The position numbers and the translations under genes are program-made. Under the pieces are notes generated by a model, which saw only the letters and a program-made list of their open reading frames with translations, was not told where the DNA came from and made no database searches. Shown piece after piece: positions 2,762 to 45,152 of a stretch of DNA of 64,000 nucleotides (position 1 is the stretch's first letter; each line of letters begins with the position of its first letter). This DNA comes from Gentiana macrophylla (lineage: Eukaryota; Streptophyta; Magnoliopsida; Gentianales; Gentianaceae): NCBI GenBank assembly GCA_026214975.1, contig CM047817.1, forward strand, positions 58,834,246 through 58,898,245. The letters run 5' to 3'.

Positions 2762-2850
2762 CCACTGTCAACCTACAGCCCGACAATCATTTTGACAACC
2801 AGCTAAGTATTCTTTTCTTTTATTTGCACATTCTGAGGACATAATGTGAT

Positions 2851-2866
2851 TTAAGTGTGGGGGGGT
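2851..2866 (+). other. internal polypurine-tract-like sequence
   Basis: TTTAAGTGTGGGGGGG followed by TGTCTA, nearly identical to the true 3' PPT of this element at 3907-3921 but 1.05 kb upstream. The tract recurs in ATH-2 (51388-51404, minus) and, degraded, in ATH-1 (8341-8354). It could serve as a second plus-strand primer during reverse transcription; this is inference. Confidence 0.6.
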
Positions 2867-3906: not shown

Positions 3907-3921
3907 TTAAGTGTGGGGAGT
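3907..3921 (+). other. polypurine tract of element A
   Basis: Purine-rich TTAAGTGTGGGGAGT immediately before the TG of the LTR at 3922; the primer site for plus-strand DNA synthesis. The same tract lies before the LTR starts at 5946 and, on the minus strand, at 50390-50405. Confidence 0.85.
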
Positions 3922-4974: not shown

Positions 4975-4976
4975 GT

Positions 4977-12166: not shown

Positions 12167-15117
12167 TGTTGGACCGTAAACGCGCAATAAATTACTCTAG
12201 AGGGGGGTGAATAGAGTAATTACCAATTTTTCGATTTTATTTCGATTAAGCACAAATCAGAGTTCCAACTTAGTTTCAGTCAATTAAACAGGCGGAAGAC
12301 TGTTTAATTTAACTGTATGAAAACTAAGTTATCCTAGTTGTCTAGGTGATCTAGTTCAGCCTAACATGCTTCAGTCAAGCAAATTTTAATTCAGATAGGT
12401 TGAATTAACTAGCATGCAGATTCAGCCCAAGTGTTTAAGTTGATAAGGTGAAACAAACACTTTGTAGATTTTAGTTCTTTAGACTAGCATGCAGAACCTA
12501 AGTGATAGAAACAACAAAACAAAAACCAAATCAAGGAAAACAAACCACAAGGGTAAGTTTTACTTGAATCACACCAAGTGTTAGTCCAAGCCAAGCTTAG
12601 AACAACATTTTGAGCTCAGATTCAAGTATAACTAAACCAAGTTACACTGAATCTACACTACTACAAGAGTGATACAAAGGTTACTAAAAAGCGAAGCCTA
12701 CAACTCCAGAGAGACGACAAAGAATGTGAGACCGCCTCTCGAACAGCCCGGTCCTTCAAAGACATCCCAACACACACAGACCTTGTGTGTTGAATCACCA
12801 AGCCTCGAGGAAGCCCTATCTACTCCAAACTTGATGAACCCGATTGCAATGACAAGCAAACAAATGACTCTCTTCAATATTCTAACACTCACAGCTCACT
12901 TAATTTCTAACTCATGAATGTAAATACAAGGCTTTCCTCACCAAATACAATCGTGCCTCACAAATGACACTCCGAACTCTCAAACACTCAACACTAACTA
13001 CACACTTCCTAATTCCTAAGTCTTCAAGCTTCCAAATGCAGCCCTGCACTTTGGACGACCCCGCAAGCACTCACAAGATAAAGAAAGTTTAGTTTGAAAG
13101 GGGGTGTTTGACCAAGAGAATGGGAGTTCAATTGCTTGGTCAATTTTGATGTATAGCTGGTATTTATACTACTAAACAACTAGTGTTTATAGTATGGGGG
13201 TAAAGTAGTCATTTAACAAACAAGGGCCCAGCTATGATGCATATGATGCATGAGAGAAAGAGTGACATACATAGCAAAGATTGTGCACACATTGGAGTAA
13301 AGAGTGCGTGTTAATGCGGTGAATTTAGAATGATGTATGAATGTAGGTGAATGTGAGAGATTATACTAATGGCATACAAGATTAAGTTATGATTGTGTGT
13401 GTGACATACTAGAAATGATGAAATGAAGTACTTATACAAGTCATCTATTTTAAAAGGTAATTTACGAAATGCTCTACTAACATCAAGCATTCAAAAACAT
13501 CTTTTATCAAAAAGACAAACTTGTAATAAGTGTGTAAATTCAGTAAATGCAATTCGAGATATCACATAAGCACATAACAAGCAAAATATAACTTCTAATT
13601 TTATATGTAGCACGGTTTCAGACTTAGTAAAGTGTGACAAACTCACAAAGGCATAACACTTATTTATGAGAGACATATTTTCATTAATCAATTCAAAATA
13701 CATATATTAAATAATTCATAAAACAAGATGCATTAAGACTTGCAAAGAAAATCATCTATTAAAGTACTATACATACGAGATGCACAAACAGAAAAAAAAT
13801 ATATACTTTGACATGCAATTCTGAGACTTCACATTTTATGTATAAGGGAAAAAAAAGGCGAGACAAAAGACTAAAAGCATGTAAAACAAATATTTTACCA
13901 AGACTTATTAGACAAGCATTTAAATTGTCTCATATATGGACAAACACAAAGAAAGATAAAATATTTTACTGCAGAAACATATTAATACTAATATTATATA
14001 AAAAGGAAACATTTATTTAAAAAGAAATTAGCTAACTGATAGAAGACAAAAGAATGATTCATATATTACTTTTCATAAAATCTGTAAAAGTAGATTAATA
14101 CGTGGAAACCACAATTTACGCAATAGCAATTAGGATAAAGAAGTTAACCAAAAAGACTTAGATCTAAGACATGCATTTCGATTAACACAGATTTGGAAGA
14201 AGACTCGATGAACACATTAGTAATACAGATTACGACTTCTCCTTGACTCGAAAAGAGAGGAAGCAAGACAGATACAGTCAATGGGCATATAGAAACGATT
14301 AAGACAGGAGAGATTTAGAGATTTACCAAAATATGAAAGGAAAGATGTTACCTTTTGACCGAGAGTTCTGAGATAGATTGATTTTGGGCATCATTGACCT
14401 CGCTTTCTGACCTCATCGGTCTCAAAGATGTCGATTTCAAAGATCAAGATCGATGCATTTCATCAAAAGCTCGCCATCTAAGCAACAACGGCTTCAAATG
14501 TAGGAATAGCTTTATGAACATCTCCGCACGAGCCACACAGATACCATGGTTTGCAGAGAATCAGTAAATGGCTCAACTTTTTCTTCAAATCTCGAGAGAG
14601 GCAACAAAGAAGTGAAAAGGCTCTTCATTTCCAAACTGAAAATAGAAGATAGATCAAAGATTTTAGAGAAAACAGAGAAGCAGAGAGGCGTTTATGGGGG
14701 AAGGGAAAGTTTTTCTAGAGAAAGAGGAGAAATAAGGATGGGTGATTAAAGAGAAAGGTGGAAGCTTCAGGCAATTGTAGTAGTAGGGGCGGCATATAAG
14801 AAGTAGGGGTGAGTTGTATATAAATTAGATTGAAAAATATTTGGGCTAAAAGGGGGCTGATCAAAATAAAATGGTAGACCTTATATATAAAGGCAAAATG
14901 ACAAGACACTATAATAAGTATAATAAATAATATAATAAGGTAAAATTAATAAGAAGATAATAATAAAGATAAGACACTTATATTATGTGACACTAATAAT
15001 AAAATAAGATACTTGATAATTTTCAAACATGTCACAATACAACTAATCGTAAAAATAGTTATGTGATATATCCCAAAAATAAATATTTTGAAATATATCA
15101 ATACAAAATACTCAACA
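12167..15117 (-). mobile_element. solo LTR of a SIRE/Maximus-type copia element
   Basis: Insertion with ends TGTTGGACC and CTCAACA, flanked by the 5-bp duplication GCTGT (12162-12166 and 15118-15122). ATH-2 shows the empty site CTAGCTGTTCCCAATC near 55208. Only one LTR and no internal coding region is present, so it is a solo LTR of about 2.95 kb. The minus orientation is deduced from a C-rich hairpin next to the 12167 end that matches the 3' ends of the SIR-1 and SIR-2 LTRs. TATA-like AGTATAAATA (near 13161, minus) and TATATATAAGG (near 14880, minus) are candidate promoters. Open frames inside are short and look accidental. Confidence 0.85.
12190..12221 (-). repeat. LTR-end hairpin with C-rich loop (SIRE solo LTR)
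   Basis: Stem AATTACTCT (12190-12198) pairs with AGAGTAATT (12213-12221). On the minus strand the loop reads ATTCACCCCCCTCT. The hairpin edge is 23 nt from the LTR end, as in SIR-1 and SIR-2, although the stem sequence is different. Confidence 0.8.
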
Positions 15118-27089: not shown

Positions 27090-27140
27090 ATCATCAAAAA
27101 GGGGGAAATTGTTAGGAACATTTTATTATGTTTTGATGAT
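27090..27140 (+). repeat. inverted repeat bracketing PPT and LTR start (SIR-1)
   Basis: ATCATCAAAA (27090-27099) pairs with TTTTGATGAT (27131-27140). The 31-base loop holds the PPT (AGGGGGAAAT) and the LTR start TGTTAGGAAC at 27110. SIR-2 has the same arrangement at 43320-43370. Confidence 0.75.
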
Positions 27141-28488
27141 GGTCGTACTAGCTGTTATAGCAAGCCTGAAATAAGTTAGAATTCTCTGTATAAGTCTTTA
27201 CTTAGTGTCTGACATGTTGTATAAGTTGAGTCAGACAAGTATTGTACTAGTTGGTAGGACGGCTAAGTAAAAATAGATACCCGGTAGAGTGAAGCCAGCC
27301 AAGTACCAGCAGAGAAGCATGAAGACATTATGGTTAGACTTATAACCAAGGAAGTCTGTGATGACCTTGCATAAGTCTAAGTAATGAAATACATTGTCAA
27401 ATATGGTGGTACACTGATCTCACCCAAATCAAGGATTATTGAAGTACAAAAAGTACTCCAAAGAATTAAAGAAAACAACAAAGCAGTAAACCGGAAAAGT
27501 AAACTAACTTTCGGCTAAGTAAAGACAGAGCAGTGAAGAAAGAACCAAATAGCCAAGTCAGAAGAATCACTTAACCGTTCAAGGAACGATCAAGTAAACT
27601 GTACTCATTCAGATTTCAAATGATGAAGATCAAGCATTAAATGCACAATCAATTGAGGATCAATCAAAGACGGATTTTCTGATAAACGTTTGAGGAAAAA
27701 TCCGATCATTGAAGTCAAGGAGAATATAATTAAGGGGGAATCAAGAATTAAATCAAGGATAATTCTCAACATTAAATAGCCAACGGACGGAAATTCAAAT
27801 AAAGGATTATCAAAGCTATAAATAGAAGGCATTGACAGACAAGAAAAATACAACGAAAAAACTGATAATAAACAAGCAAAAGTTTTGTCAATTTGAAAAG
27901 CCTTCAATTTGTAATTAAAAGAGACATCTAGAGATCAACTCAGAAATCAGAGCTCAAATTCCACGTCAAGCACTGAGATTGATCACAAGTCAATGAATCC
28001 ATTTCGTACCAACTGAGGCAATTGAATCAGAGGAAACTGAGAAGGAGTTGCAACCTTTGTGATAGATGCTGAAAGATTTGTTCTCAATGAGCAGTGATAG
28101 AGACTGAGTCACTTAAGCTTTTGAAGCCAGGGAGTGATAGTCTTAAAGATTTTGAATCTTGTGTAGTCAAGGACAATCGCACTATTGTATCTATGAAAAC
28201 AATAGTGAATTTCCCCAATCATCACAGGAGAAGAGTGGATTAAGGGATTACACCCCCCTTAACCACTATAAACATTTGTGTCTATTTACCTTCAGCAATT
28301 TACTTTGCAGCACTGTATTTCATTATACACTTTATATCTGTGATTGCATAAACTACTTTGAAACAACATTTTAAGAAGGGACTTATCTGCTGCCCAAACG
28401 GTTTTAAATATAAGAAAAGTTTTTGAAACTCCACTATAGTCATTCACCCCCCTTCTGACTATAGTTTTACCCTTCTCTGGGACCAATA
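27110..28488 (+). repeat. 3' LTR of SIR-1
   Basis: About 1379 bases, TGTTAGGAAC to CCAATA. TATA box CTATAAATAG at 27816-27825. It is homologous to the SIR-2 LTRs, with visible divergence and small deletions. Confidence 0.9.
28433..28465 (+). repeat. LTR-end hairpin with C-rich loop (SIR-1)
   Basis: ACTATAGTCA (28433-28442) pairs with TGACTATAGT (28456-28465) around TTCACCCCCCTTC. The stem ends 23 nt before the LTR end. Confidence 0.85.
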
Positions 28489-28518
28489 GTTATCAGGTCT
28501 GAGATTCAATTGGAGCTA

Positions 28519-29950
28519 CTACTGAGATGGAAAAAAATTTATTAATCGGGGAAAACTCTGCCTGATCTCAGTCGATTTCTCTTCTTCTAAAAAAGTTAAT
28601 CTTGACAGGTGATCAGCCACCTGGTTCTCAGATCCTTTTTTGTCATTGATCTCGACATCAAACTCTTGTAAGAGTAGAATCCATCTCAATATTCTCAGCC
28701 TGATGTCTTGTTTGGTTAGAAGGTATTTCAGAGTTGCATGGTCAGTAAATACAGTGACTTTCGATCCTATCATATATGGTCGAAACATGTCAAATGTGAA
28801 TATAACAACTAAGAGCTCCTTCTCTGTAGTTGTATAATTCCTCCATGCACTATTGAGGGTACGACATGAGTAATAGATAGGCTTAAAGATTTTATTCTCC
28901 CTTTGTCCCAGGGCTGCTCCAACTGCCGTGTCGCTTGCATCACACATAAGCTCGAAAGGTTTGTTCCAATCTGGGGCTATTAGAATTGGGGCAGTTATAA
29001 GCATTTGCTTTAATGTCTCAAATGCTTGCTTGCACTCCTTTCTGAATACAAAAGGCACATCCTTTGCAAGTAATTCCTTCAAATGTCTAGAAACTTTAGA
29101 GAAATCCATAATTAACCTCCTATAGAAACTTGCGTGGCAAAGAAAGGCTCACAATATCTTTAAGTTTCTTGGAGGGGGTATCTTCTTTATTACCTCTATC
29201 TCTGTCTTATCAACCTCCATTCCTTTCCATGAAATCTTATGACCCAACACTATTCCTTCTGTTACCATGAAATGACATTTATCCCAGTTAAGTACAATGT
29301 TGGTCTCTTCACATCCATTCAGCACACTACTCAAGTTGTCCAAGCATTTATCAAAGCTATTTCAAAATACAGAAAAATCATCCATGAAAATCTCTAGAAA
29401 GTCCTCCACCATGTCCGCAAATAATGACATCATGCACCTTTGGAATGTTGCTGGTGCATTACAAAGTCCAAAAGGCATGCGATTGTACGCAAAAGTTCCA
29501 TAGGGCCATGTGAAAGTTGTTTTCTCATGGTCCTCAGGGGAAATATGGATATGATAGTAACCAGAATATCCATCTAAGAAACAATAAAAAGCATGACCGC
29601 TTAACCTTTCTAACATCTGGTCAATGTATGGTAGGGAAAATGATCTTTACGAGTTGCGTCATTCAGTTTCCTGAAACCAATGCAAACTCGATGTCCAGTA
29701 ATTAGCCTCATAGGGATTAACTCATCGAACTCATTAGGTTGGGTAGTGAATCCTCCTTTCTTGGGCACTACATGAATCGGGCCCACCCATTCACTGTTTG
29801 CAATTGGGAAATGATTCCCATTTCAAACATCTTTATAATCTCCTTCCTAGAAACATACTTCAGTTGTGGTGTCAGCCTCCATTGAGGTTGTGCTACCGCT
29901 TTCTTCTCGGGGTCTATAGAGATTTAATAAATGCACACCTATGTGTTTAT
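28519..29950 (-). pseudogene. Athila-type reverse transcriptase and RNase H (ATH-4)
   Basis: RT is read from 29616 as [29 protein letters not shown] and the catalytic block IFMDDFSVF, then (29343) LNWDKCHFMVTEGIVLGH. After a frame break it continues from 29109 into RNase [38 protein letters not shown] and [10 protein letters not shown]. All RNase H acidic residues are present. An in-frame TGA or frame change occurs at about 29360 and another at about 29130. The protein ends near 28519, where the integrase should follow but SIR-1 begins. The sequence is well apart from ATH-1/ATH-2 (for example PPPRNLKIL in place of YPKTVKEV). Confidence 0.9.
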
Positions 29951-30775
29951 TCCTCTAATATCTGCAATCGTCCATCCGTAGGCTCCCTTATGCTCTCTCA
30001 GTACTCTTAAAAGTTTCTCCTCCTCTAAAGGTGATAGTAACGTTGAAATTATGAGGGGAACAATATCATTTTGTAAGTATATGTACTTAAGGTGAGATGG
30101 CAAATGTTTCAACGTTAAGTTCCTTGGTGGCTCTTCCAATGATGATCTTAACAGCTTACCAGTCAATTGTAAGTAAAAGAACTTATGCCATGAAGGTCTA
30201 TGAATTGTTCCTCCTAAATCCACAGAAGATATAGGCTCCACTTCTCGCATTTAACCTTTGCCACACCCAGGCCAGGTTTCCTCATTACTTTCTTCATCTT
30301 CTTTCAGGAGCAAAGTCTCTGCTACTTCAGGGTCTAGTGCCACTTGCTGATATAATTCAAAAACATGCTTGTTTATGGCATCTAGAATGTAACATGCTTC
30401 TCCTTCATCTTGTGCATACCTCATTGTTTTCATCACATTGAATACTACTCTGTCCTCATTTACTCTTAGAATCACCTCACCCTTATGAACATCTATCAAG
30501 GTTTTACATGTCGCTAGGAAAGGTCTTCCTAAGATCAATGGAACATTGTGGTTAGCTTTCATGTCTAGCACTACAAAGTCTATGGGGAATACGAACTTAT
30601 CAACTTTCACCAGAACATCCTTCACCACCCCACATGGTTGCTTCATAGACCTATCGACCAACTGAAGGGTTATAGATGTTTCATTCAACTCTTTCATGCC
30701 TAACTTATAAAAGATGGACAGTGGAATTAAATTCACACTGGCTCCAAGATCACACAATGCTTTATTTAGGCACAT
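29951..30775 (-). pseudogene. Athila-type aspartic protease and protease-RT linker (ATH-4)
   Basis: A 174-codon open frame (30775-30251) carries ALCDLGASVNLIPLSIFYK. The active-site aspartate lies in DLGAS, the form usual in Athila proteases. It is followed by LQLVDRSMKQP, the flap-like VLVKVDKFVFPIDFVV and the second conserved block VPLILGRPFLAT. The linker continues at 30250-29939 (LKHLPSHLKYIYL). The protease would mature the Gag-Pol polyprotein. It is among the better preserved regions of this old element. A stop separates protease from linker at 30251. Confidence 0.9.
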
Positions 30776-32376
30776 TCCTCCAATTGTGCAAGATGGAGGA
30801 AGCTCCCAGGATCTTTACACTTAGGAGGTAGTTTACGTTGCAAAACTGCCAAGCATTCCTCGTTAAGTCAAATAGTATCAAGGTCTAACAATTTACTTTT
30901 GGTAGAGACAAATTCTTTCACGAATTTCACATATTCTGGCATTCCGGCCAGAACTTCTACCAAAGGTATATTCACTTGCAATTTCTTAAACATCTCTATG
31001 AACTTTTTATAACGAGCATCGTTATGATTCGGTTTTTATTTCCTAGGGAATAGGTAAAGTAGCAGGATTAATAGTTACAGTTTGAGAAGGCTTACCTGCT
31101 GCCTGCTGCTGCTATGCCTGCTCAGCTGTTGAATTTTCAGACGCCCGGTTAATCGGCATGGTGTCCCGATTTACCGGCCCCTCCTTTTCTCCCGATTCTA
31201 CTACGTTATGATGCTGAGTGCTTTTTGATTCTTCTTGGATAGTTGGTATAAATGGTATAGGCAGTTCCTTTCCGTATCTAGTCATAATTGCATTCATGTC
31301 CTTCGGATTATTTTTTGTGTTACGGCGATTCTCACGGAGGACAAGCTGACACTTGTTCAGCGATTTGCCCCACTTAGTGTGACAGATTCTGCACTAAGGC
31401 TTCTTGATTGGTTAGCTTGTATCATTCTTCTGACAATATATGGTGAAGTTCGCATTCAGCTCAGTCACGGATTTTGTGAGTTGATTGACCGTGTCGGTCA
31501 CAGTTGAGCTCATTTTATCCATGGTTGCTTCTCAACCACCTGACTTGTTGAATTAAGGCATGAATCCACCAGTTTGTCTTGGTCTCTCTCCACCTATAGG
31601 ATCACTTATTCGAAAACCAGGGTGGTCGTGCTAACCTGGGCGATATCCACCCCTATAAGGATTTTCTTGCCTCCCTAGATAGTTCACATCTTCGGTGTTG
31701 GTTACTTCAACTTCTTGAACTTTCTCTACCTTGGAAAGGCAATCATGCATGCCATCTATTTTCTCATTCATCGACATTAGCAAGTATAAGATCTTCTAAG
31801 ATGTATCTTCTCCAAATATGCCTTCAGCTACCTTTCAAGTCTCAATTTGATGCGTTCCTTATTGGCTTGTAAGTGCTATTTGCTCCAACTTTTCATCAGC
31901 TTCTTCAGGTGATAGCTATGCAAAACATCCATTGCTCGATGCGTCAACTCTCATTTGTTCACTTGGACATAATCCATGATAGAAACTATGCATTCAAACA
32001 GGCAAAGTGATATCACGGTGAGGGCATCTCATTTGTTCTTCCGTAAACATTTCCCAAGCTTCTTCGAAAGATTCGGTTGGTTTTTGCTTGAAATTCTTGA
32101 TGTCTTGACTTATCTGTAGTGACTTCCCAGGTGGGCAGTACTTGTTCATAAATTTCTACAGTAGACCAGTGCAAGTTTGCATCGATCCCGGTGCTAGAGA
32201 CAATAACCATATTATCGCCTAGTCTTTCAGAGTGAATGGAAACAACTTCAGCTTAATGTTATCTTCAGGTACTCCTGCTGGTTTGACTGTGCTGAATATC
32301 TCCAAGAAGTTAGTGACGTGTACACTAGGATCTTCGTCCGGTACTCTATGGAAGGTAGTGTAGTTGGTCACCATCT
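30776..32376 (-). pseudogene. Athila Gag, main part (ATH-4)
   Basis: Reads from the hAT duplication site: QMVTNYTTFHRVPDEDPSVH, then KLKLFPFTLKD and, after a stop, the WLLSLAPGSMQT core. It continues with interrupted segments (EEAWEMFTEEQMRCPHRD, FYHGLCPSEQMRVDASSNG) and a low-complexity C-terminal half, including the open frame 31297-31112 (MTRYGKELPIPFI). At least ten stops or shifts are present, so this is an old pseudogene. The N-terminus lies beyond the insertion at 45153-45229, and the two halves rejoin exactly when one copy of the 8-base duplication is removed. Confidence 0.85.
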
Positions 32377-33402
32377 GTATCACGTAGAGACGAGCAAAAT
32401 AACTAATAAACCAATCCAAATCATAAATCAATCCAAACCAATCTGAATTAACCCAATGAATTTCTTTGGTTTGGAACCAAACCAAATCGCATTGGGTTGG
32501 TTTCAGATATTTTTAATTATACCCAATCCAATCCGAACCAAACCAAAATTTTCATACATTAATTATATATATTATATCTATTACCCAACCGACCCAATAT
32601 AATCCAATTTTTTACAATATAACCCATTATATAACAATCTTAGACTCTCGGTCCACTTATCCCAAAAGTATAGTTTAGTTCTTGTTAGGAACATTTTATT
32701 ATGTTTTGATGATGGCCACACTAGCTGTTATAGCAAGCCTAAAAATAAGTTAGAATTCTCTGTATAAGTCTTTACTTAGAGTCTGACATGTTGTATAAGT
32801 TGAGTCAGACAGTTATTGTACTAGTTGGTAGGACGGCAAAGGAAAAACAGATATTCGGCAGAGTGAAGCCAGCCAAGCACCAGTAGAGAAGCAATGCAGA
32901 TATTAAAGGTCTGACTTGTAACCAAGGAAGTCTGTGATGACCTTGGACAAGTCTAAGTTATACTACAAGTGATGTACATTAATATTCAAATATGGTGTAC
33001 ACTGATCTCACCCCAATTTAAGATCAGTGAAGTACAAAGATTCTCCTTCAACTTAAGCAAAGAAGAAAACTGTGAACCGGCAAAGTAAACTGACTTTCGG
33101 CTGAGTGAAGACAAAACGGTGAAGGAAGATCTAAATCGGCTAAGTCAGAAGGATCGCTCGACCGTTCTGAAAACGGCGAAGGAACACTTACAGATCAGAT
33201 TTAATATACAGAAGATCATGCATTAAATGCACAATCAATAGAGGATCAATCAAGGACGGATTTCCGCTATACGTTTGAAGAAAGAATCCGATCCCTTGAA
33301 ATCAAGGAGAATGCAATTAAGGGGAATCAAGAATAAAATCAAGGATTATTCCCTCATTAATATAGCCAACGGACGGAATTTCAAAATCAAGGTTATTCAA
33401 GG

Positions 33403-33412
33403 CTATAAATAG
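33403..33412 (+). promoter_or_regulatory. TATA box of the SIR-2 LTR
   Basis: CTATAAATAG in the middle of the LTR. It is conserved at 44058-44067 in the 3' LTR and at 27816-27825 in SIR-1, and would start the genomic RNA about 30 bases downstream. Confidence 0.7.
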
Positions 33413-34030
33413 AAGGCATTGACAGACAGAGAATGTGGAAGAACGGAACAAAAAAATCAAGTGAAAACTCTGTCAATTTAAAAAGCCTTCTCTCTGAACT
33501 TACAAGAAAACATCTAGTTATCAAGTCAGACATCAGAGCTTCAAAATCATACTCGACCTTGAGTTTGATCAACCAAGTGTGTGAATCACATTCACATCAA
33601 GCTCAAGCAATGAATCGGAGGCAATCGAGAAGGAGTTGAATCTGTGATATTTGTTGAAGGATTTTGATCTTAGGGAGCAAACAAGAAAGAGCTGATCAAT
33701 CATGAAGGCTATTGCGGTCAAGGAGTGATAGTCTTGTAGATTGTGAAGCTTGGAAAGCCAAGGACAATCATACTATTGTATCTGTGAAAACAATAGTGAA
33801 TTCCTCCGATCATCACGGGGAGAAGAGTGGATTAAGGGATTACACCACCCTGAACCACTATAAGCCTTGTGTCAATTTAATTTTCGCAATTTACTTTACT
33901 GACATTTATTTGATTTGCCTACACCATAACTTATTTTCGTGATTGTGCGAATCGATTTGAAAACAACTTAGTAAGAAGGGACTTATCCACGCCCAAAAGC
34001 TTTTAAATAAAAGAAAAGTTTTGAAACTCC

Positions 34031-34062
34031 ACTATAGTCATTCACCCCCCCTCGACTATAGT
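34031..34062 (+). repeat. LTR-end hairpin with C-rich loop (SIR-2 5' LTR)
   Basis: ACTATAGTC (34031-34039) pairs with GACTATAGT (34054-34062) around a TTCACCCCCC loop. One T is missing compared with the 3' LTR copy. Confidence 0.85.
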
Positions 34063-34088
34063 TTTACCGCTTCTCTGGGACCAACAAT

Positions 34089-34103
34089 TGGTATCGAGAG
34101 CGG
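34089..34103 (+). other. primer-binding site, initiator-Met tRNA (SIR-2)
   Basis: TGGTATCGAGAGCGG two bases after the LTR. The usual copia site is TGGTATCAGAGC, so this copy has one extra base inside the site, which could be an error or a defect. Confidence 0.85.
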
Positions 34104-34223
34104 TGTTCTAGTATCGAACCTGCTCAGATCTAATTTACAGTAACAAGGAGATCACATATTTTCAAAGTAGTTTTCAAATCTGAGTTTTCTATACATTTAC
34201 ATTTATATCTTCATTTGTAATTG

Positions 34224-35689
34224 ATGGATTCCTCAAACTTCTTGTCGAAAGTACTGTTTTTAATGTCAATAATTTTGATGAATATAGAATAAGAATGCTA
34301 TCTCATCTTGCAAACAACTCATGAAGAGATCTTTGGATGTAATTAATGATGGACCAATCACAATCACTACTGTGGTAGGCACAGGGAGCGAGATCAAGGA
34401 AAGGAAATTGACAAACCTAAAAGGATTGGACCAAGGATGACAGGAGAAGAGCAAACCTGGACTTTGTTGCAAAAGACATGATCTTGAAGACCCTAGATAG
34501 CAACATGTTCATGAGAATCAAAGGCGCAAAACAAAGAAAGGAGATGTGGGACAAGCTATCATTGATAAATGAAGGATCTCAAGCGATTAAAGAAAACAAA
34601 TTATCTGTTGCAAAAGCGAAGTTTGAAAACTTCAAAATGAAGGCCCGGTGAATCCATAGATCAAATGGACAATGAGACTCTCAAGCATCATCGATGGCGC
34701 AATGACTTGGACACACATATCCCCAAAAAGAAGTATGCTTGAAGATCTTGAGAGGACTACGAAAGATGGAAGATCATAACATCCGTAATCAGAGGAACAA
34801 CAAATCTTGCAAGCACTGACACTCTGCCACTGATGTCCCAATTAAAAGCTCATGAATTCGAATTGAACGGTGAAGATGGTGCTCCGGGAGAGACACAAAA
34901 ACTCACTGCACTGGTTGTACCCCAGCAAAGTAACTTTGCCGAGTACATCAAACAAAGAAACACATGAACTTAAAAGAATGTAGCTTTATTGGTTAAACGC
35001 TTTGACACGTTTAGCAAAAAGAAGCCCTTCAAAGGAAATTCATCATCAAACAAGAGGTCAAGCTCAAACAGAGACATGAAGAAGAAAGATGATGAATACA
35101 GATGCTTCAATCTGCAACAAGAAAGGTCACTTCAAGGTGATTGTCTCAAGAAAATGACAAAGATGATGAGAAGAAGAAATACAAAGCATTTGAAAAGAGA
35201 AAAAGCAAGAAGGCACTCAAGGCAGAATCCCGCAGTGAGAAGAATGAAGAATCATCTGATAATGATTCAGATGATAGTGATGAAGAAGACAGCTCAGAAA
35301 AAGAGAAAGCATGCATATGCCTCATGACCAAAGAATTGGATGAAGATGATAGTTCAGACACTGAAGAAACAAGCCTATGTCTAATGGCTAAAGAATCAGA
35401 TGAATCTGAGGTATTATCTAGCTCTTACTCTTCATCTAATACATCCACATCTGACACTGCACAATCTTCTACTCTCCCATTAGATACAGCAGAACTGGTC
35501 CAAAATCTCATGACTAAATTTGATGAAATTGAAAAGAATCATGAAATTCTGGAAAAGGAATGCAAGGATCTAAGAAAAGAAAATAAGAGATTGAATAAAG
35601 AACTGGATAAAACAAAAGCTGAATTAACTAGTAATGAGACCTACTTAAATGATCAACAAAAAGTAGATGATCATACATCATATTATTGA
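34224..35689 (+). pseudogene. SIRE-type Gag (SIR-2)
   Basis: Starts MDSSNFLSK at 34224, 120 bases after the PBS. The gag core can be followed through several frames (NNFDEYRIRMLSHLANNS, PITITTVVGTGSE). A CCHC zinc knuckle near 35104-35150 can be recognised across frames (RCFN, then GHF and DCLKK) but is disrupted by small insertions. From 35141 a 182-residue open stretch has the acidic, serine-rich tail typical of SIRE Gag (NDSDDSDEEDSSEKEK, with repeated CLMAKE-type blocks), followed by a coiled-coil segment (EILEKECKDLRKENKRLNKE). Gag would form the particle shell and bind RNA. As read, it cannot be made as one protein. Confidence 0.85.
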
Positions 35690-35788
35690 TGATCGATTAA
35701 GAAAATCTCCTCACCAATAAAGGTAACCCTTTGCACCACTAAAGGCACCGACACAAACCCTCAAAAGGTTTGGATCTCAGATCTGGTC

Positions 35789-37927
35789 TTGGCTACAATG
35801 ATCGAGGATGAAAGTAGGAATAATGGTCAACACAATTCTAAATTCAGGACCATTAATGGACCAAAATTTAGAAAGGGATGCACCATAGTTTCAACAGATC
35901 ATCTGTTCGGTGAAGTCAAAACCCAATGCGATAAAGCAATGAGACTAAATCCTCATTCCAGTCAATCAAGAACAATGACCATCTGAAAGGTAAAGGCGGA
36001 CTTTACTCTTGAGAGGATGATTGGAATGTTGCACCTCCAAAATACAAGAAACCATTCAACAAAATGCATCATGTGACTAAGAAAACCAATCTGTTCTAGA
36101 CACTTGAAGCAAGAAAGGTTTTCTTGCATATTGGAAAGTGAAGAAGGATGTAAATGCACCAAAAGGTGGAGAAAAGTATCAGAATACCTGCAGCAAGAAT
36201 ATTAGAAGCTATTCTGCCATGCCTTATACATATGAAGTTGATGACTTCAATTATCCAAAAAGAAGACCTTTTGGATACACACTTGGTATGGGAGGCATGA
36301 TTGCTAGCAAGTATGGACCCAAACGGTGTTGGGTACCTAAACTTAATTGTCTGTTTTGTAGGATGTCCGGTACATAGGCGGTGGATGTTCCGCATACATG
36401 AGAGGAAACAAGAAATGGCTCATGACTTCAAGGCCTTTGATGGACCCAAAGTCACATTTGGAGGCAAAGAAAACCCTGGCAAGATTAAGGGGAAGGCATA
36501 ATACTCAAGAACAATTTGAAGATTCAAAATGTGGCATATGTCAAGGGACTAAATTTCAATCTGATGAGCATTAGTCAATTTTGTGACAAAGGCTACAATG
36601 TGCACTTCAACAAAGAAGGATGCAAAGTGATTCACAGCCAAACCAACACAGTGGTTCTTGCAGGTAGAAGACAAGACAACATGTATGTTGTGGACTGAAA
36701 AAATGACCAAAGCGAAACATGTCTCACTGGTCAAAAACAAACAATCTACAAGCTGGATTTGGCACAGAAGATTAAATCATCTGAATTTCAAGACCATCAA
36801 CAAACTATCAAAGAACAAGTTAGTTGAAGGTTTTCCAGAGATCACATACAAGAAAGAAAGTCTATGTGATGCATGTCAGAATGGAAAACAGATCAAAAGT
36901 TCATTCAAGTCAAAGCCTTATCAATCTACAACAAGAATTCTACATCTGTTACACATCGACTGTTTGGACCACCACACCAAGAAGTGTGAGTGGTAAGAAA
37001 TACACCCTTGTAGTGGTGGATGACTTCTCAAAGTAAACCTGGACCATTTTCATGAACAAGAAGAAAGAGACACTCAAAAAGCTGCCAGATTTGCTGAGAA
37101 GACTCCAAAATGAGAAAGAACTAAAGATCATAAAGATCAGATCAGACAGAGGCACTGAATTTCTAAATGAAATCATCGAGAACCTCTGTGAAGAAAATGG
37201 AGTTCTACATCAACTATCTGCGGCAGCAGCACTCCACAACAAAAAAAGGTGTAGTAGAAAGAAAAGCAGAACTCTCAAAGAAGCGATTAGAACAATGATT
37301 TTTGAAGCATGCTTGCCAAAGAGATTTTGGGTCAAGCAAACAAACACGACATGTCATACACAAAAGCAGATCAATCATCAACAAATATCATGGAAAGACT
37401 CCATATGAAATATGGAATGGTAGAAAAACCCAATATCTCATATTTTCATATGTTTGGATCAAAATGTTTGTCTTAAACAGGAACCAGCTGCATACCTTTG
37501 ATGAGAAGGTCGATGAAGCAATCTTCATGGGATACTCAGTCACCAAAGACAAAGCATTTGAGTACTCAATAAAAGAACATTGGTGATTGAAGAATCAATA
37601 CATGTGGTTTTTTATGAACCAAATACAAATGGTGAAGATCTTCATGACCAAGAAGAGAAAGCAGCACAGAAGGAAATCTATACAAATGCAACCATACCAG
37701 CTACTATCCTGAATCATCACTTTGAAAATCAAGAGGAGCCACATATCAATACAACAGAAGAAGTACCTGAAGTTGAAGTTCATACTCAGCATGAAGGTAT
37801 GGAAGCACCAAGTGAAGAACAACTTCAACCAGATCTAAATTGGCTAAGAGACCATCCTGAAGAACAAGTTATTGGAGATATTCACATAGGAGTTAGAACC
37901 GTAAGACAAGCTGCAAAGACATGCTAA
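35789..37927 (+). pseudogene. copia protease and integrase (SIR-2)
   Basis: Protease remnant near 36365-36500: the active-site region reads YIGGGCSAYMRGNKK, so the usual DSG catalytic triad is not present. It is followed by VTFGGKENPGKIKGKA. Integrase follows: a zinc-binding block (WHRRLNHLNF, then CDACQNGKQ, HHCC all present), a core with VVDDFSK broken by a stop after K, IKIRSDRGTEFLNE with the second aspartate, and a frame-disturbed region where the glutamate block is altered. The integrase C-terminus and linker to RT run to 37927 (DLNWLRDHPEEQVIGD). In-frame stops and shifts occur roughly every 200-400 bases. SIR-1 retains a better integrase glutamate block. Confidence 0.88.
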
Positions 37928-38037
37928 CTTGCTTTCTATCACAAGTGGAACCTAAGACCATAGATGATGCAATCCAAGATGCAGATTGGATCACAGCCAT
38001 GCAAGAAGAACTAAATGAATTTGAAAGAAATTAAGTC

Positions 38038-39474
38038 TTGGAACTTGTCGACAGACCAGATATGGCCAACATCATTGGTGCAAAATGGGTGTTCAGGAAC
38101 AAGATGGATGATCAAGGAACTGTTGTCAGAAACAAAGCAAGGCTAGTTGCAAAAGGCTATTCTCAAGCAGAAGGAATAGACTATGATGAAACATTTGCAC
38201 CAGTATCAAGATTGGAAGCAATCAGACTCTTTCTAGCTTTTGCTGCATACAAAGACTTCAAAGTCTATCAAATGGATGTCAAGAGTGCATTCCTAAATGG
38301 ACTTTTGGAAGAAGAAGTTTATGTAGAACAACCTCCTGGATTTCAAATCAAAGGAAAAGAAGACAAAGTATACAAACTCAAGAAGGCCCTCTATGGCCTC
38401 AAACAGGCACCTAGAGCCTGGTATGAAACACTATCACAATTTTTGATCAAAAATGGATTCAACAAGGGAACTATTGACAAGACTCTATTCAAACTAGAGG
38501 AAGGAGCAAGCACGTTGCTAGTACAAATCTATGTTGATGATATAATCTTTGGATCAGAGGATGAAAAGCTTTGTGAGAAATTTGCAAACCTGATGAAGAG
38601 CAAATTTCAGATGAGCATGATGGGTGAATTAAACTATTTCCTTGGCTTTCAAGTAAAGCAAATGAAGGATGGCATTTTCATTAGTCAAGCCAAGTACACA
38701 AGAGATTTGATACACAAGTATGGGATGGATACAAGTGGCACAGCAGACACACCAATGTGTGCCAGAGTCATACTAGGAAAAGATGAAGCAGGAAAGGATG
38801 TTGATCAGAAAATGTATAAAGGAATCATTGGATCCATATTATACTTAACTACAAGTAGACCTGATATAGCATTTACAGTAGGAGTATGTGCAAGATTTCA
38901 AGCTCAACCAAAAGAATCACATCTTCTAGCAGCCAAAAGGATAATCAAATATTTGAAAAACACTATAAATGTTGGAATTTGGTATCCAAAAGATGGAGGT
39001 TTTAAATTGATATCATATTCAGACTCTGACTATGCTGGATGCAAAATAGATAGAAAAAACACCTCTGGAACATGTCAAATGCTAGGAACTAGACTAGTCT
39101 CTTGGTTCAGCAAAAAGCAAAACTCCATATCTACATCATCAATTTGAAGCGAATATATATAGCAGGTAGTCAGCTGTGCTCAAGTACTTTGGATAAGACA
39201 ACAGCTAAGGGACTATGGAATGGAAGAGAAAACAATTCCAATCATGTGTGATAACACAAGTGCAATATCTATTACTGAAAATCCAGTATTGCATTCAAGA
39301 ACAAAGCACATTGATGTGAGACACCATTTTATCAGAGACCATGTTGAAAAGGGAGATGTCATCCTAAAATACATACCTACTGAAGATCAATTGGCTGACA
39401 TCTTCATAAAACCACTCAGCTATGAAAGATTTAGTATGTTGAGAACTGAGTTAGGAATGATTGAAATTGACTAA
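38038..39474 (+). pseudogene. copia reverse transcriptase and RNase H (SIR-2)
   Basis: The longest intact domain of this element: 369 residues open from 38038. RT blocks are [51 protein letters not shown] and the catalytic YVDD ([10 protein letters not shown] near residue 165). [19 protein letters not shown] and RNase H with SRPDIAF and SDSDYAGCK follow. A frame shift at about 39145 breaks the RNase H block that reads STAEAEYIA in SIR-1. The end resumes at 39220-39474 (CDNTSAISITENPVLHS, EDQLADIFIKPL) and stops cleanly. It would reverse-transcribe the element RNA if expressed as part of Pol. Confidence 0.95.
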
Positions 39475-40100
39475 GTATCAAGGAGTGGCCAACTGGAGTA
39501 ATCGGCTAAGTGACTTCATCAACTGGTACAACCCTTGCCGCTACAAGTGTACATGTGCAAGGCAATCGGGCATCCAAATGAAGGTAACTTAAGCGATTGT
39601 TAGGAGCAGATTAAATGGAGCACTCAATGAAGAACCCATTTGATCGGCTAAGTGGCCAGCCAAGGCACTTCACCGAAATAAAGACTTGGATAAATTAAAA
39701 GTGTGAACAAAATCAACTCTGATTACACGTGGAGAATAAGGCAATTATAGAGGATTATTCTGTGAAAGATTACACACGTGGAGAGCAATTTATGATCATG
39801 GAGGTAATTGTATTATTTTTCGAATTGAAAATTCCTCGATTTCTGGGCTCTATCATTACTTACCTCAAACCACTCCCCCATTACGCTCGAATATCGCAAT
39901 TCACATACACAAAATCACGCCATGATGTCACAAAATCCTTCCATATTCAAACCACGTTCACACTACCCAAATCACACTATATAAACCAGACCTAAAGATT
40001 TTCAGAAATCTTTACGCTCTTTTGAAAATTACAAACCCTACTCTTGTTTCTCTCTATTGCAAATTCAAGTCCATTTTCAAACCCCCTCTCCTCTTCAACA
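39475..40100 (+). other. intergenic region between pol and extra ORF (SIR-2)
   Basis: About 0.6 kb without coding potential. It contains CGGCTAAGTG motifs (39507, 39650) and the candidate promoter at 39726-39985. Homologous to 24242-24867 of SIR-1. Confidence 0.6.
39726..39985 (+). promoter_or_regulatory. candidate internal promoter of SIR-2 (two G-boxes and TATA)
   Basis: CACGTGG at 39726-39732 and 39775-39781 and TATATAAA at 39978-39985, 116 bases before the ATG at 40101. Spacing between the second G-box and the TATA box is identical to that in SIR-1. Confidence 0.5.
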
Positions 40101-42230
40101 ATGGCATCATCTTCCTCAATCACCCAAGCTGGGTATGAAAAATCGATTGCCACTGGTTCATTCTTCCGAGCGTAACACTACACAAATCGTATGCGGAAAT
40201 GACGAGCATGCCAAACGGTTGGCAGCAGGCTATGAAAATCTAAAACTATCAACCTTTCTCAATCCTCCAATAACCGATGTGTGTTATGAAAATCTCATAT
40301 CCTTCTGGAAATCTGCACAATATGTATCTGGGCTCCTAGCTGAAGAAGGTGATGAGTGGGAAGCGGACAAGATCGTTGCATCTGTCAACGGCAAAGAAGT
40401 GGTGATCACAGAAAAGGTAATTCGAAAACATCTCAAACTTTCAAATGAAGGTCAAGAAAAAGTAACATTGGTATCACAAAACTTGGATGATTTCTGGGCA
40501 ACTATCGCCAAAACGGAAAACCCAGAATCTACAAAAGTCAACTGTCTGAGATCTGCATTGAAGAAACCATTCAATGAATTTAGTGCCCTAATTGGCAAAA
40601 CCATTGAAGGAAAGTTGGGCGCAAATAATGCCATGACAGAAATTAGAATACGGCTAATGTGAATCATTTACAACAATTTACAATTCAATTGGGCAAAATA
40701 CTTCTTCCTACGAATCAAAGAGCAAATCCAAGGGGAAGTAAAAGCAGAAAAGAAGGGGATAAAAGAGGGAAAGACAAAGAAAGGCCAATTCTGGGTGAAA
40801 AAGTCATATGGGATTCAATTACACTATCTAATGCAATGTCTTAACGTCCCTCCTGTTCAACTCCACAAACTGCATGAATCCAAAGTCATGTTTACCTATC
40901 TTAAACAACAAAAGAAGACAGGAGACGGAAAAAGGAAGAAATCCACACAAATCACTACCAGTCAAAGAAAGAAGCAAAGGTTGTTGAAATCTGGACAAGA
41001 CAGACTTTGGAAAATTAATTGATGAAGAGGCAGAGGATTTCAGGCGAGATGGAGCAACAGGAAGAAGAGAATGACAGTGAGGATGAGCAACATCCTAATA
41101 GGGAAGATACTGGAGATGATGAGGCATCTCCAGAAGAAGCTGCACACTTGTCTGCAAACGATATAGATGATCGAATTGCAGATTATCTTGAGTGGAATGA
41201 GGGGGATTCCAGAAAACAACTTCAAGACTCAGACCACATGCTTGCTGAAGAAGCATGGCTATTTAATTTTCTGGGAATCACAACTCTGGTAGGTGTACTT
41301 GATGAATCGCCTCTATGGGACTTGGTTGATGCAGCCAAGACAAAACTGCCCCAGGCCTCTGGGAGACAGAGTGATGACTCAGATGATGATCATGATCATG
41401 ATGATGATGATGATGATCATGATGATGATGATGATAATGATGGTGACTTTGATAAAGACAGAGAAGAGGATGCTCCTGCACCAGATGCACTTGATGATAC
41501 AACTCTTCTCCGTACATTCTTGAAACCACAAGCATCAAACAAGTCCTCAACTCCGGCAAAGGCAGCCACTCAACCACTGACTGTGAATGTTCCAGCTGAC
41601 AGCACACACATTGTGGACACTGGTTCAGCTGCTGCCATGCCAGTTAAAGCAACCCCCGGCATAGAGATAGGGGGAACTGCAACTCCAGCATATACATCTA
41701 CCCAAATTCTTGATGATTTGGAAACTGGAGTAGATGTCACTCAACATCAAGACAAGGGACAGCAAACAGAACCAGAACCAGCTGACACAAGGCACAAACT
41801 CTCTCAGCTGGCAACTGGCATTACAAATGAAACTTTTGAGTAAGCAGCAGACCTGCTGGCTGAAGAATTGGAGCAGCAAGCCATGTATCTCAGATCCATG
41901 ACTTCAGCATTTAATGACAAAAGTTCCTCCATTGAACACAAGTTTTAGGCCATTGCAGAGTACATTGATGCACAAAACATTGTGATTCAACAACAGGGAA
42001 ATCTGATGAAGCAGCTTAATATCAATATCACCAACAATCTTGCAGGGCTCAAACAGCATATTTCCCAAGAAAATGAATCAATGGCAGTGGCCTTTGGCAC
42101 TAAATTTCATAGTGTGAATGAGAAACTGAATGATCATCACCACAGATTCACATCTATTGAATCAAAGCTTGACTCTCTGATCGGCACGGCAGAGGCCACA
42201 ACAAAGATCTTACTCCAAAGAAAGGGATGA
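40101..42230 (+). pseudogene. extra ORF after pol (SIR-2), unknown function
   Basis: Starts MASSSSITQAGYEKS at 40101. A shift after SFFRA leads into a well-kept domain (to 40662: STFLNPPITDVCYENLISFW, GKEVVITEKVIRKHL, DDFWATIAK). A stop and a shift follow, and 40795-41022 corresponds to KKSYGIQLHYLMQCLNVPP. The next stretch (41019-41843) is strongly acidic, with an aspartate/histidine run and an S/T/P-rich tail. The end (41982-42230) looks like coiled coil (NLMKQLNINITNNLAGL, FHSVNEKLNDHH). No membrane segment, zinc finger or enzyme motif is recognised. The gene lies downstream of its own candidate promoter. SIR-1 has the homologue. It may be a structural, nuclear or env-replacing protein; function unknown. 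Confidence 0.65.
41382..41442 (+). repeat. GAT/CAT trinucleotide run (Asp/His codons)
   Basis: Near-perfect GATGATCAT-type microsatellite inside the extra ORF of SIR-2, giving a run of Asp with interspersed His. It is absent from SIR-1, where the acidic part is Glu-rich instead. Confidence 0.9.
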
Positions 42231-42415
42231 TCTTTCGCCAAAAAGGGGGAAAATCAGGATAAGCCTGAACCTGAAGGATCAAAAATCAGACCCCCAAATT
42301 TTACTGAAGAACAACTGAGAGCAAGAGACAGAGAAATAAGAATCGAAATGAAGCGTAAGAACAAAGCAAAGAAGAGTCGAGAAGAAAAGAAAAGGCCCTA
42401 AAAGAACTCCCTGCA

Positions 42416-43203
42416 TTGGATTTCTCATCCTATCAAAGAAGAGATGATGATAGAGACAGATCCGGCAGAGGCGGCAAAGGCCTGGATCTAGTCAAACAAA
42501 TAGGATCAGCTAGTCAACACAAACTCAAAGACGGAGGAAACACCAGCAGAGGCAAGGCAGCAGCCTCCAGGATATCTTGGGAACACAGAACTTACACTGG
42601 TCACCAAAGCAAAGCGAGAATATGATGCAGATGTCTTTGGACCATGTAAGAGAATTTTTCGAGTACAGAAGGACTTTATACTCACTTCTCACAAGATGAA
42701 GCTTGGGCTGATTGGCTAAGCTTATCGAGGATGAAATGATGAGAACCGATATGGCCAAACTCTACAATGAAGTCAAAAGAGAGTTTGCACTTCTCAAACA
42801 AACCAACAACAAACCAAGCTCAGCCATACCACTATCTCAAAAGGACGGAAGACACGCCAATTTGAACAACAAGAAGAATTCAAATATATGGCAAAATTCT
42901 TCAATCCTATGGGAAGAGTGGAGAAACAGAGCAAAGTGGAGTCTCTACAAAAGCCTCAAGTTTGCAGATTCACATATTGTTGAGGCTAGGAAAGACTTGA
43001 AAAATATTTTGGAGAACCTAAGGCAAATGAGACCATGCCACGATTTCAACAGACTTTTTGCCAAAAGAGTTTTTCAGGGTGTATCTGAATACACAGCTTT
43101 GGCTTACTGGAAGTGGAAGTTTCCAGAAATTGATTGGAAAGACATTGAAGAGGTTCAGACTACAAAGTTCAAGAGGTACAAGGCTGAATTAAGCAAAATG
43201 TAG
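42416..43203 (+). CDS. hypothetical ORF before the SIR-2 3' LTR
   Basis: Two open stretches in different frames. The first (42416-42625, MDFSSYQRRDDD) is rich in D, R and G. The second is 163 residues (42712-43203), begins MAKLIEDEMMRTDMAKLYNE and contains WEEWRNRAKWSLYKSL, LENLRQMRPCHDFN and YWKWKFPEIDWKDIEE before a clean stop 136 bases from the LTR. It is probably the C-terminal part of the extra ORF or a separate small gene. SIR-1 lacks it completely, so it was deleted there or gained here. No family recognised; the Trp- and Lys-rich helical pattern suggests a structured domain. Confidence 0.45.
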
Positions 43204-43319
43204 TTTGTAACATTTGAATAAAGTTTTAGAACTTATTGCCCTATGATGGATGAATAAAACTGTTGAATTTTTGTTCTATTATTTCGATTACTTATATTCA
43301 GGCTTATGAGGGTTTTGGC

Positions 43320-43370
43320 ATCATCAAAAAGTGGGAAATTGTTAGGAACATTTTATTATGTTTTGATGAT
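43320..43370 (+). repeat. inverted repeat bracketing PPT and LTR start (SIR-2)
   Basis: ATCATCAAAA (43320-43329) pairs with TTTTGATGAT (43361-43370). The PPT (GTGGGAAAT) and the LTR start (43340) lie in the loop. It exists only at the 3' end, because the left arm is internal and the right arm is in the LTR. Confidence 0.75.
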
Positions 43371-44743
43371 GGCCACATTAGCTGTTATAGCAAGCCTGAA
43401 AATAAGTTAGAATTCTCTGTATAAGTATTTACTTAGAGTCTGACATGTTGTATAAGTTGAGTCAGACAAGTATTGTACTAGTTGGTAGGACGGGAAAGGA
43501 AAAACAGATATTCGGCAGAGTGAAGCCAGCCAAGCACCAGCAGAGAAGCAATGCAGATATTAAAGGTCTGACTTGTAACCAAGGAAGTCTGTGATGACCT
43601 TGGACAAGTCTAAGTTATACTACAAGTGATGTACATTAATATTCAAATATGGTGTACACTGATCTCACCCCAATTTAAGATCAGTGAAGTACAAAGATTC
43701 TCCTTCAACTTATGCAAAGAAGAAAACTGTGAACCGGCAAAGTAAACTGACTTTCGGCTGAGTGAAGACAAAACGGTGAAGGAAGATCTAAATCAGCTAA
43801 GTCAGAAGGATCGCTCGACCGTTCTGAAAACGGCGAAGGAACACTTACCAGATCAGATTTAATATATAGAAGATCATGCATTAAATGCACAATCAATAGT
43901 CAATCAAGGACGGATTTTCTGCTATACGTTTGAAGAAAGAATCCGATCACTGAAATCAAGGAGAATGCAATTAAGGGGGAATCAAGAATAAAATCAAGGA
44001 TTATTCCCTCATTAATATAGCCAACGGACGGAATTTCAAAATCAAGGTTATTCAAGGCTATAAATATAAGGCATTGACAGACAGAGAATGTGGAAGAACG
44101 GAACAAAAAAATCAAGTGAAAACTCTGTCAATTTAAAAAGCCTTCTCTCTGAACTTACAAGAAAACATCTAGTTATCAACTCAGACATCAGAGCTACAAA
44201 ATCATACTCAGCACTGAGTTTGATCAACCAAGTGTGTGAATCCCATTCACATCAAATCAAGCAAATCGAATCGAGGCAATCCGAGAAGGAGTTGAATCTG
44301 TGATATTTGTTGAAGGATTTTGATCTCAAGGAGCAAAGAAAGAAAGATGAATCATCAAGCTGCATTGCGATCAATGATCGATAGTCTTGTAGATTGTGAA
44401 GCTTGGGAAGCCAAGGACAATCATACTATTGTATCTGTGAAAACAATAGTGAATTCCTCCGATCATCACATGAGAAGAGTGGATTAAGGGATTACACCAC
44501 CCTGAACCACTATAAGCCTTGTGTAAATTTAATTTCTGCAATTTACTTTACAACATTTATTTGATTTGCCTACACCATAACTTATTTCTGTGATTGTCTG
44601 AACTGATTTGAAAACAACTTAGTAAGAAGGGACTTATCCGCTGGCCAAAAGCTTTTAAATAAAAGAAAAGTTTTTGAAACTCCACTATAGTCATTCACCC
44701 CCCCCCCCTCTGACTATAGTTTTACCCTTCTCTAGGACCAACA
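43340..44743 (+). repeat. 3' LTR of SIR-2
   Basis: Same length as the 5' LTR, TGTTAGGAAC to GGACCAACA, TATA at 44058-44067, followed by the duplication GTTCT at 44744-44748. Confidence 0.95.
44684..44720 (+). repeat. LTR-end hairpin with C-rich loop (SIR-2 3' LTR)
   Basis: ACTATAGTCA (44684-44693) and TGACTATAGT (44711-44720) form a 10-base stem. The C run in the loop is longer than in the other copies. The stem ends 23 nt before the LTR end. Confidence 0.85.
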
Positions 44744-45152
44744 GTTCTGTCTTTTCCTTTTTTGATGTAAATATATAAATCAGTAAATGCATGTATGTAA
44801 GTATGCAACTATGGAGGATTGATTGTAACTGAATTCTATTGTAATGTGTAGTTACTTGTTAGTTGTTTTATGTTTTTTCTTTTATCATTTTGGTTGGTAA
44901 TTTATTTTAGTTTGAATATATCTATTTAAAGTTTATGTAAAAAAGGTTGGTTTTGTCATTTTTTTTAAAGATTAGGCTTGTTAAACCGAAACCAACTCAA
45001 TACAAATTGAAACCAATTCGAACCAAACCATTGGGGTTTACTTCATTTTGGTTTGGTTTGAGGAACGAATTATGGCGCCCCAAACCGGCCCGAGTCTTTC
45101 AAAACCAATCCAAACCCAGTAAAACCAATCCAAGCTCAGCCCTAGTATCACG

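Follow-up and report, generated by a model that had tools for sequence, protein, structure and literature searches.

The 64,000-nucleotide (nt) stretch of the Gentiana macrophylla genome analyzed here (contig CM047817.1, forward-strand positions 58,834,246 to 58,898,245; hereafter the window) contains two retrotransposons of the Sirevirus type, SIR-1 and SIR-2, and, on the minus strand, a long terminal repeat (LTR) of another family with the Sirevirus C-rich loop. The reverse transcriptase (RT) of SIR-2 is of the Copia type (RVT_2, E value of 1.7e-80, positions 38038-39144). Four LTRs in the window carry a stem-loop a short distance before their 3' ends, and comparison of many such ends within one genome shows that compensatory changes have maintained the stem from family to family; the loop core and the spacing to the LTR end are fixed, and the loop length drifts.

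In SIR-1, the 3' LTR (27110-28488, plus strand) encodes a 10-bp stem with arms at 28433-28442 and 28456-28465, closed by a 13-nt C-rich loop (28443-28455) and separated by a 23-nt spacer (28466-28488) from position 28488, where the LTR ends in CCAATA instead of CCAACA. The SIR-2 insertion (32683-44743) is flanked by the target-site duplication GTTCT, found at 32678-32682 and 44744-44748, and its two LTRs, both on the plus strand, are ∼94.6% identical when compared from 3 bases inside each LTR start. The 5' LTR (32683-34086) has a 9-bp stem (arms 34031-34040 and 34054-34062), with one T missing from the 3' arm, and a 24-nt spacer (34063-34086) up to its end at 34086. The 3' LTR (43340-44743) has a 10-bp stem (arms 44684-44693 and 44711-44720), a 17-nt loop that includes a run of 11 C, and a 23-nt spacer (44721-44743) up to position 44743. 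The minus-strand LTR combines a different 10-bp stem (arms 12221-12212 and 12199-12190) with the same loop core, TTCACCCCCC, and ends at 12167 after a 23-nt spacer (12167-12189); the bases that follow its end differ from the usual primer binding site (PBS). A search of both strands of the window found the loop core only at these four LTR sites, and no Rfam family matched the window at the gathering score. An earlier note on this DNA had described the four hairpins, with their strands, their spacings, the lost T and the changed stem around a common loop core; re-reading of the arm coordinates and loop occurrences and remeasurement of the spacings confirmed that description.

Pairing and covariation at LTR 3' ends

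The comparison was drawn from the genome to which the window belongs (1.79 Gb), so that all C-loop data come from one genome and mostly from a single contig, C1. Junctions were chosen by the LTR end and the binding site for the initiator methionine tRNA (tRNA-iMet) primer alone, blind to loop and stem. The usual form of this site, TGGTATCAGAGC, is seen in the genome junctions here and in the accessible text of PMC2829016. The combined LTR-end and primer-site pattern CAACANNTGGTATCAGAGC occurs at 1,960 genome sites, as opposed to 0 for the reversed pattern, and TTCACCCCC is found 25-54 nt upstream of TGGTATCAGAGC at 1,216 sites, again with 0 for the reversed version. The first 100 junctions listed, all on contig C1, were all fetched, and 74 of them contain the C-rich loop, as defined by a pattern allowing variants (one row, L036, was set aside as not being a C-loop LTR end).

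For each of these 74 junctions, the 10 nt upstream of the loop were compared with 12 downstream registers, of which the best-pairing one was scored. All 10 positions were paired in 37 junctions, 9 in 22, 8 in 14, and 7 in a single one. The inner edge of the 3' arm lies 33 nt from the LTR end in 38 rows, 34 nt in 33, and 32 nt in 3, which makes the interval from the 3' edge of the loop to the LTR end the tightest fixed distance. The two findings that, according to the earlier note, would have counted against its proposal, noncomplementary arms in other families and freely varying spacing, are therefore both contradicted: no C-loop junction has fewer than 7 of 10 positions paired, and the distance is confined to 32-34 nt. 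The loop itself varies in length from 8 to 24 nt but is uniform in composition: it starts with TTCA in 70 of the 74 junctions, and G accounts for 4 of the 1,009 loop letters.

A second set was collected with the loop pattern TTCACCCCCCTCTAG, which matched 237 sites (1 when reversed); 55 of these were sampled and 54 used. One loop match without an LTR end (L268) and two junction rows short of upstream sequence were dropped before the alignment. A further listing of 100 rows contributed 51 distinct GCGC-type sites; none of them has fewer than 7 of 9 arm positions paired when the best register is taken, and they include a new stem, ACAAGTTCT/AGAACTTGT. Swapping arms among these 51 hairpins proved uninformative as a control: the inner stem is common to these families, and exchanged arms often pair well too. 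RT matches in C-loop families B, D, and F had identities of 44-79%, 58%, and 54-62%, respectively, and 7 of the 10 fetched stretches gave no RT match; these identities, which give no lineage tree, suggest that some C-loop families are well diverged.

Given that the arms abut the loop, the sequences could be aligned without gaps by anchoring them on the loop, which yielded 109 distinct rows out of 130 (the window row W34041 is one base out of register owing to its lost T). Pairs 1 to 8 are formed in 94-98% of the rows, pair 9 in 78%, pair 10 in 47%, and pairs 11 to 15 in 24-44%. The composition of a single pair illustrates the freedom of the arm sequence: at pair 5, GC and CG are found in 34 rows each, TA in 18, and AT in 16. 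Ranked by covariation, the top six of 750 column pairs all belong to the stem, and two stem pairs individually pass the E threshold of a tree-aware test. The null model for this test, a simplified R-scape-like implementation of our own, re-placed the Fitch changes of each column on the tree in 300 simulations. The fraction of paired cells was 0.937, whereas the null maximum was 0.576, and the summed covariation was 604, compared with a null mean of -3 (standard deviation of 49, maximum of 157); with a tree built without the arms, the null mean was 14, with a standard deviation of 54. Changes from one pair type to another on the same branch numbered 12, against a null mean of 1.0 and maximum of 5, and 29 on the arm-free tree, against 1.45 and 6; shifted registers showed only 0 or 1 such changes (0 to 5 on the arm-free tree). 

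Additional evidence comes from 15 rows that were hand-chosen for distinct stems and are therefore not a fair sample for pairing rates. An independent tool gave these rows a covariation of 0.964, as opposed to 0.252 after shuffling and 0.09-0.30 for slid structures; they contain 57 doubly changed cells, compared with 18.3 in shuffled data, and RNAalifold predicts 9 of the 10 stem pairs. As a negative control, the same loop was examined in 8 distinct flanks from IMG/VR, where 1 to 5 of the 8 outer positions are paired; in the plant rows, 6 to 8 of the 8 are paired in 124 of 128 cases. The control flanks derive from a search of IMG/VR with TATTCACCCCCCTCTA (14 stretches, 8 distinct flanks); CAACAAKTGGTATCAGAGC gave 0 matches and AKTGGTATCAGAGCC at least 120 stretches. 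The C-loop is absent upstream of all 7 matches in a collection of genome contigs, 4 of which were judged by eye to be bacterial and 3 possibly plant.

Several observations weigh on the other side. Judged one at a time, the four window hairpins fold only modestly better than shuffled sequences (RNA z-scores of -2.98, -1.74, -3.74, and -0.77); the strong evidence comes from comparison. A free search for stems in the last 80 nt placed 57 of the 74 C-loop ends in the top tenth relative to 100 shuffles; in the other 17, the best stem did not exceed 90 of the 100 shuffles, and in 3 of the 74, the best-scoring stem lay elsewhere. Off-register column pairs are paired in 39% of the rows on average and in up to 86%, and pairing rate alone is not decisive; it misleads because the sequence is A+T-rich, a weakness that covariation does not share. 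Two of the five measures applied to the 15 hand-chosen rows, the number of pairs changed on both sides and of further pair types, were equaled by 80 and 295 of 500 shuffles, respectively. In a prediction exercise, the 5' arms of 20 sites were written down from the 3' arms alone before the sequences were fetched: 4 proved to be exact compensated arms, 3 kept their pairing by G-U, and 4 were ordinary family arms that pair, but in the remaining 9 of the 20, the stem was broken or paired only in part. Three copies (L084, L090, and L344) share an uncompensated change, which indicates a subfamily that tolerates a broken pair. These results are read here as dead copies that decay freely, one subfamily that lives with a broken pair, and several lineage-level changes that have been compensated. 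Finally, of 872 cells, 11 are G-T and 11 are A-C, a balance that leaves the strand on which the fold acts undecided; wobble asymmetry, tried as a means to separate RNA from complementary DNA (cDNA), was accordingly uninformative.

The modest individual z-scores and the many single copies with broken pairs would fit the view that all families simply inherited one inverted repeat whose fold is not under selection. However, neither the tree-aware null nor the shifted registers nor the slid structures reproduce the covariation, and pairing drops sharply at pairs 9 and 10, so that chance or shared ancestry appears extremely improbable as an explanation. Preservation of the fold at the LTR end can be regarded as close to certain, and selection on a nucleic-acid fold at this place is strongly supported.

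Candidate roles of the folded strand

Retroviruses such as Rous sarcoma virus carry in the U5 (unique 5') region of their LTRs, just upstream of the priming site, the U5 inverted repeat (U5-IR) stem-loop, in which the fold is conserved over the sequence. A U5-IR-like structure of the Tf1 element was reportedly described by Lin and Levin in 1998. The Sirevirus stem-loop resembles the U5-IR in lying within the LTR just upstream of the PBS and in conserving fold over sequence; it differs from both the U5-IR and the Tf1 structure in belonging to another class of elements and in its invariant C-rich loop, so that a role in priming would be assigned to it by analogy. In this genome, the 3' end of Sirevirus-type Copia LTRs encodes a stem-loop of 8-10 bp with an almost G-free C-rich loop, TTCA-C(n)-TC, the loop-proximal edge of the stem being placed 33-34 nt before the LTR end and ∼35 nt before the tRNA-iMet PBS. 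On the favored model, the hairpin would work as a folded strand in U5 of the genomic RNA and/or in the first minus-strand cDNA and would organize the complex of template, tRNA primer, RT, and Gag that starts reverse transcription, with the exposed C-rich loop as the part that is recognized. Such a role is favored by the distance of ∼35 nt to the primer site and by the way in which the sequence is constrained, both reminiscent of the U5-IR. The start of reverse transcription would be the likeliest function, and Gag binding or packaging the second, both by inference; the model as a whole, including its U5-IR-like role, is put forward tentatively, with a chance somewhat short of even.

The U5-IR-like model also favors an additional contact between the spacer and the primer tRNA, and this contact is not clearly there, which counts against the model. 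Contiguous matches of 5-8 nt to tRNA-iMet were found in 9 spacers (values of 0.01-0.70 in the single-spacer test), and their summed length was greater than in any of 2,000 shuffles, a result tempered by the relatedness of the rows. The duplex energies of 16 spacers with tRNA-iMet were equaled by 36 to 253 of 300 shuffles, and unrelated bacterial tRNAs (0 to 3 of 5) paired with the spacers just as well. Candidate pairings of 6-8 nt, such as CUGGGACC with GGUCCCAG and UCGAUCC with GGAUCGA, have energies no better than those of shuffles and were retained only as a lead. The tRNA-iMet sequence was confirmed in the genome (L362). The spacers of L119, L051, L127, and L281, among others, contain suggestive stretches of 7-8 nt that could pair with the T or D arm of this tRNA, again with duplex energies that shuffles equal. 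Separately, three sequences with similar flanks (L359, L360, and L361) match 19 bases of the 3' half of tRNA-iMet; ARAGORN recognized no tRNA genes in them, and they are possibly elements with a longer primer site.

The C-rich motif itself has been reported before. Bousios et al. (2010) described a "polyC-rich integrase signal" of ∼19 bp with a variable C-run, on average 21 bp from the LTR end, in 17 Sireviruses (PMC2829016), and the loop described here is the same motif in the same place. The accessible text of that paper reads the motif as an integrase signal and does not mention a surrounding stem; the inverted repeats that it describes are at the junction of the polypurine tract with the 3' LTR and at the gag/pol boundary, and it also discusses palindromic repeat boxes that precede the TATA box. 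The literature searched, with most subscription journals outside its coverage, yielded, among the papers listed, no report of a stem around the C-rich motif; motif searches of it gave no lead either in the best 40 of 82 and of 114 papers listed. Location and conservation of the motif in 17 Sireviruses are also the argument for the 2010 proposal that integrase reads it in double-stranded form. However, sequence-specific binding to duplex DNA does not require arms that vary freely yet remain complementary, nor does it sit well with a loop that ranges from 8 to 24 nt. Arms that are free in sequence but still pair with each other suit a folded single strand better than duplex recognition, and a double-stranded integrase signal appears quite unlikely. 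Of the proposals in the earlier note, selection on structure is thus borne out by the covariation, whereas priming, packaging, and integrase recognition are not separable by sequence, integrase recognition being the least favored of the three.

A conserved, C-rich, and nearly G-free loop could alternatively serve packaging, dimerization, or circularization of the genome, by binding Gag, a zinc-knuckle protein, or by pairing with G-runs near the 3' end, where the polypurine tracts and a run of G within U3 (the unique 3' region of the LTR) are the proposed partners. SIR-2 contains four runs of five G (at 41201, 41670, 42245, and 43975), and five G also occur in polypurine-like tracts of SIR-1. 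The accessible text of PMC4974528 describes tRNA-iMet contacts in the 5' leader of Ty1 as well as circularization of this element through CYC5:CYC3 pairing. Ty1 is, like the Sireviruses, a Copia-type, tRNA-iMet-primed element in which RNA regions close to the primer site are paired; the regions described in that text lie downstream of the PBS, however, and the complementarity of the Sirevirus spacer to tRNA-iMet is weak. Pairing of five C with five G is generic, the terminal tract of SIR-2 reads GTGGG and not five G, and nowhere in SIR-2 does the loop have an exact complement longer than 8 nt; the 8-nt one lies inside the RT reading frame and was not taken as evidence for a specific loop partner within the element. 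Packaging or circularization is accordingly a possible but doubtful explanation, to be placed behind the start of reverse transcription.

The trans-activation response (TAR) and poly(A) hairpins of human immunodeficiency virus type 1 (HIV-1) lie in the repeated RNA ends of that virus, where TAR and its cDNA counterpart, cTAR, help the first strand transfer. They resemble the Sirevirus structure in being hairpins at RNA ends, but their loops and stems look unrelated to it, and a location of the Sirevirus hairpin in the R (repeat) region is putative. A hairpin at the R/U5 border could take part in 3'-end formation or, if it lies in R, in the first strand transfer. The sequence upstream of the GCGC-type stems is indeed A-rich (A fraction of up to 0.8 at positions -20 to -16 from the loop), and such stretches could serve as poly(A) signals; in the rows anchored on the PBS, however, the A fraction is lower and does not exceed 0.48. 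Furthermore, the "Sire" model places the poly(A) site near the TATA box (PMC3601003), albeit for elements that are, by its own account, phylogenetically distinct from the Sireviruses of PMC2829016. The hairpin lies ∼600 nt downstream of the TATA box and, with a poly(A) site so placed, would fall in U5. A poly(A)-site or strand-transfer hairpin is thus unlikely, and a U5 element that assists the start of reverse transcription remains the preferred reading.

Other plant Copia elements and additional features of the window

Among the 26 junctions without a C-loop in the first 100, 10 have a stem that outscores at least 95 of 100 shuffles. Of these, eight (L025, L026, L045, L048, L049, L060, L074, and L077) represent one Copia-like family without the C-loop that has an 8-10-bp hairpin within the last 40 nt before the LTR end; its loop is 4-6 nt long and lies 17-19 nt from the LTR end. 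Two others, L059 and L064, which also lack the C-loop, have a hairpin with the 3-nt loop "cca" near the LTR end; as judged by eye, their stems differ by a change from T-A to C-G plus wobbles.

It is conceivable, if rather speculative, that plant Copia elements generally carry near the LTR end a U5 hairpin that is selected for its structure, with free stems and lineage-specific loops (the C-run in Sireviruses; loops of 3-6 nt in two further groups here that are primed by tRNA-iMet). The loop would then be a lineage tag for assembly of the primer complex or for packaging, and the integrase signal of 2010 would be the loop of an RNA element. According to the accessible text of PMC3599292, Sireviruses make up ∼21% of the maize nuclear genome. 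A hairpin at the U5 end would add a second replication-related structure to the polypurine-tract inverted repeat already known in Sireviruses (PMC2829016, accessible text). It gives RNA probing a defined target, puts a new reading on a motif that had been filed as an integrase signal, provides a family-independent handle for finding LTR 3' ends, and allows a test of whether plant Copia elements with tRNA primers rely on a U5 stem-loop like that of retroviruses.

Both SIR-1 and SIR-2 have the terminal polypurine tract together with AT/TG and the flanking inverted repeat. In SIR-1, the tract is found at 27099-27109, just before the 3' LTR; in SIR-2, the tract and its inverted repeat, GGCATCATCAAAA/TTTTGATGATGGCC, span 43317-43374 on the plus strand. 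This combination is a Sirevirus feature already described in the accessible text of PMC2829016. A sequence resembling the polypurine tract, AAGGGGGAAT, is also found within U3 of the SIR-1 and SIR-2 LTRs (27732 and 43973). The PBS region that follows the 5' LTR of SIR-2 (34087-34104, plus strand) reads TGGTATCGAGAGC and departs from the usual TGGTATCAGAGC; at this junction, TATCGAGAGC replaces the usual succession of a CA end, ATTGG, and TATCAGAGC. Forms of TATCGGAGC, related to the SIR-2 primer site, are present in other copies. Elsewhere in the window, direct repeats 2.0-2.1 kb apart, with inverted copies, were noticed at 2841-6472 and 6916-7919; they are perhaps nested or rearranged elements.

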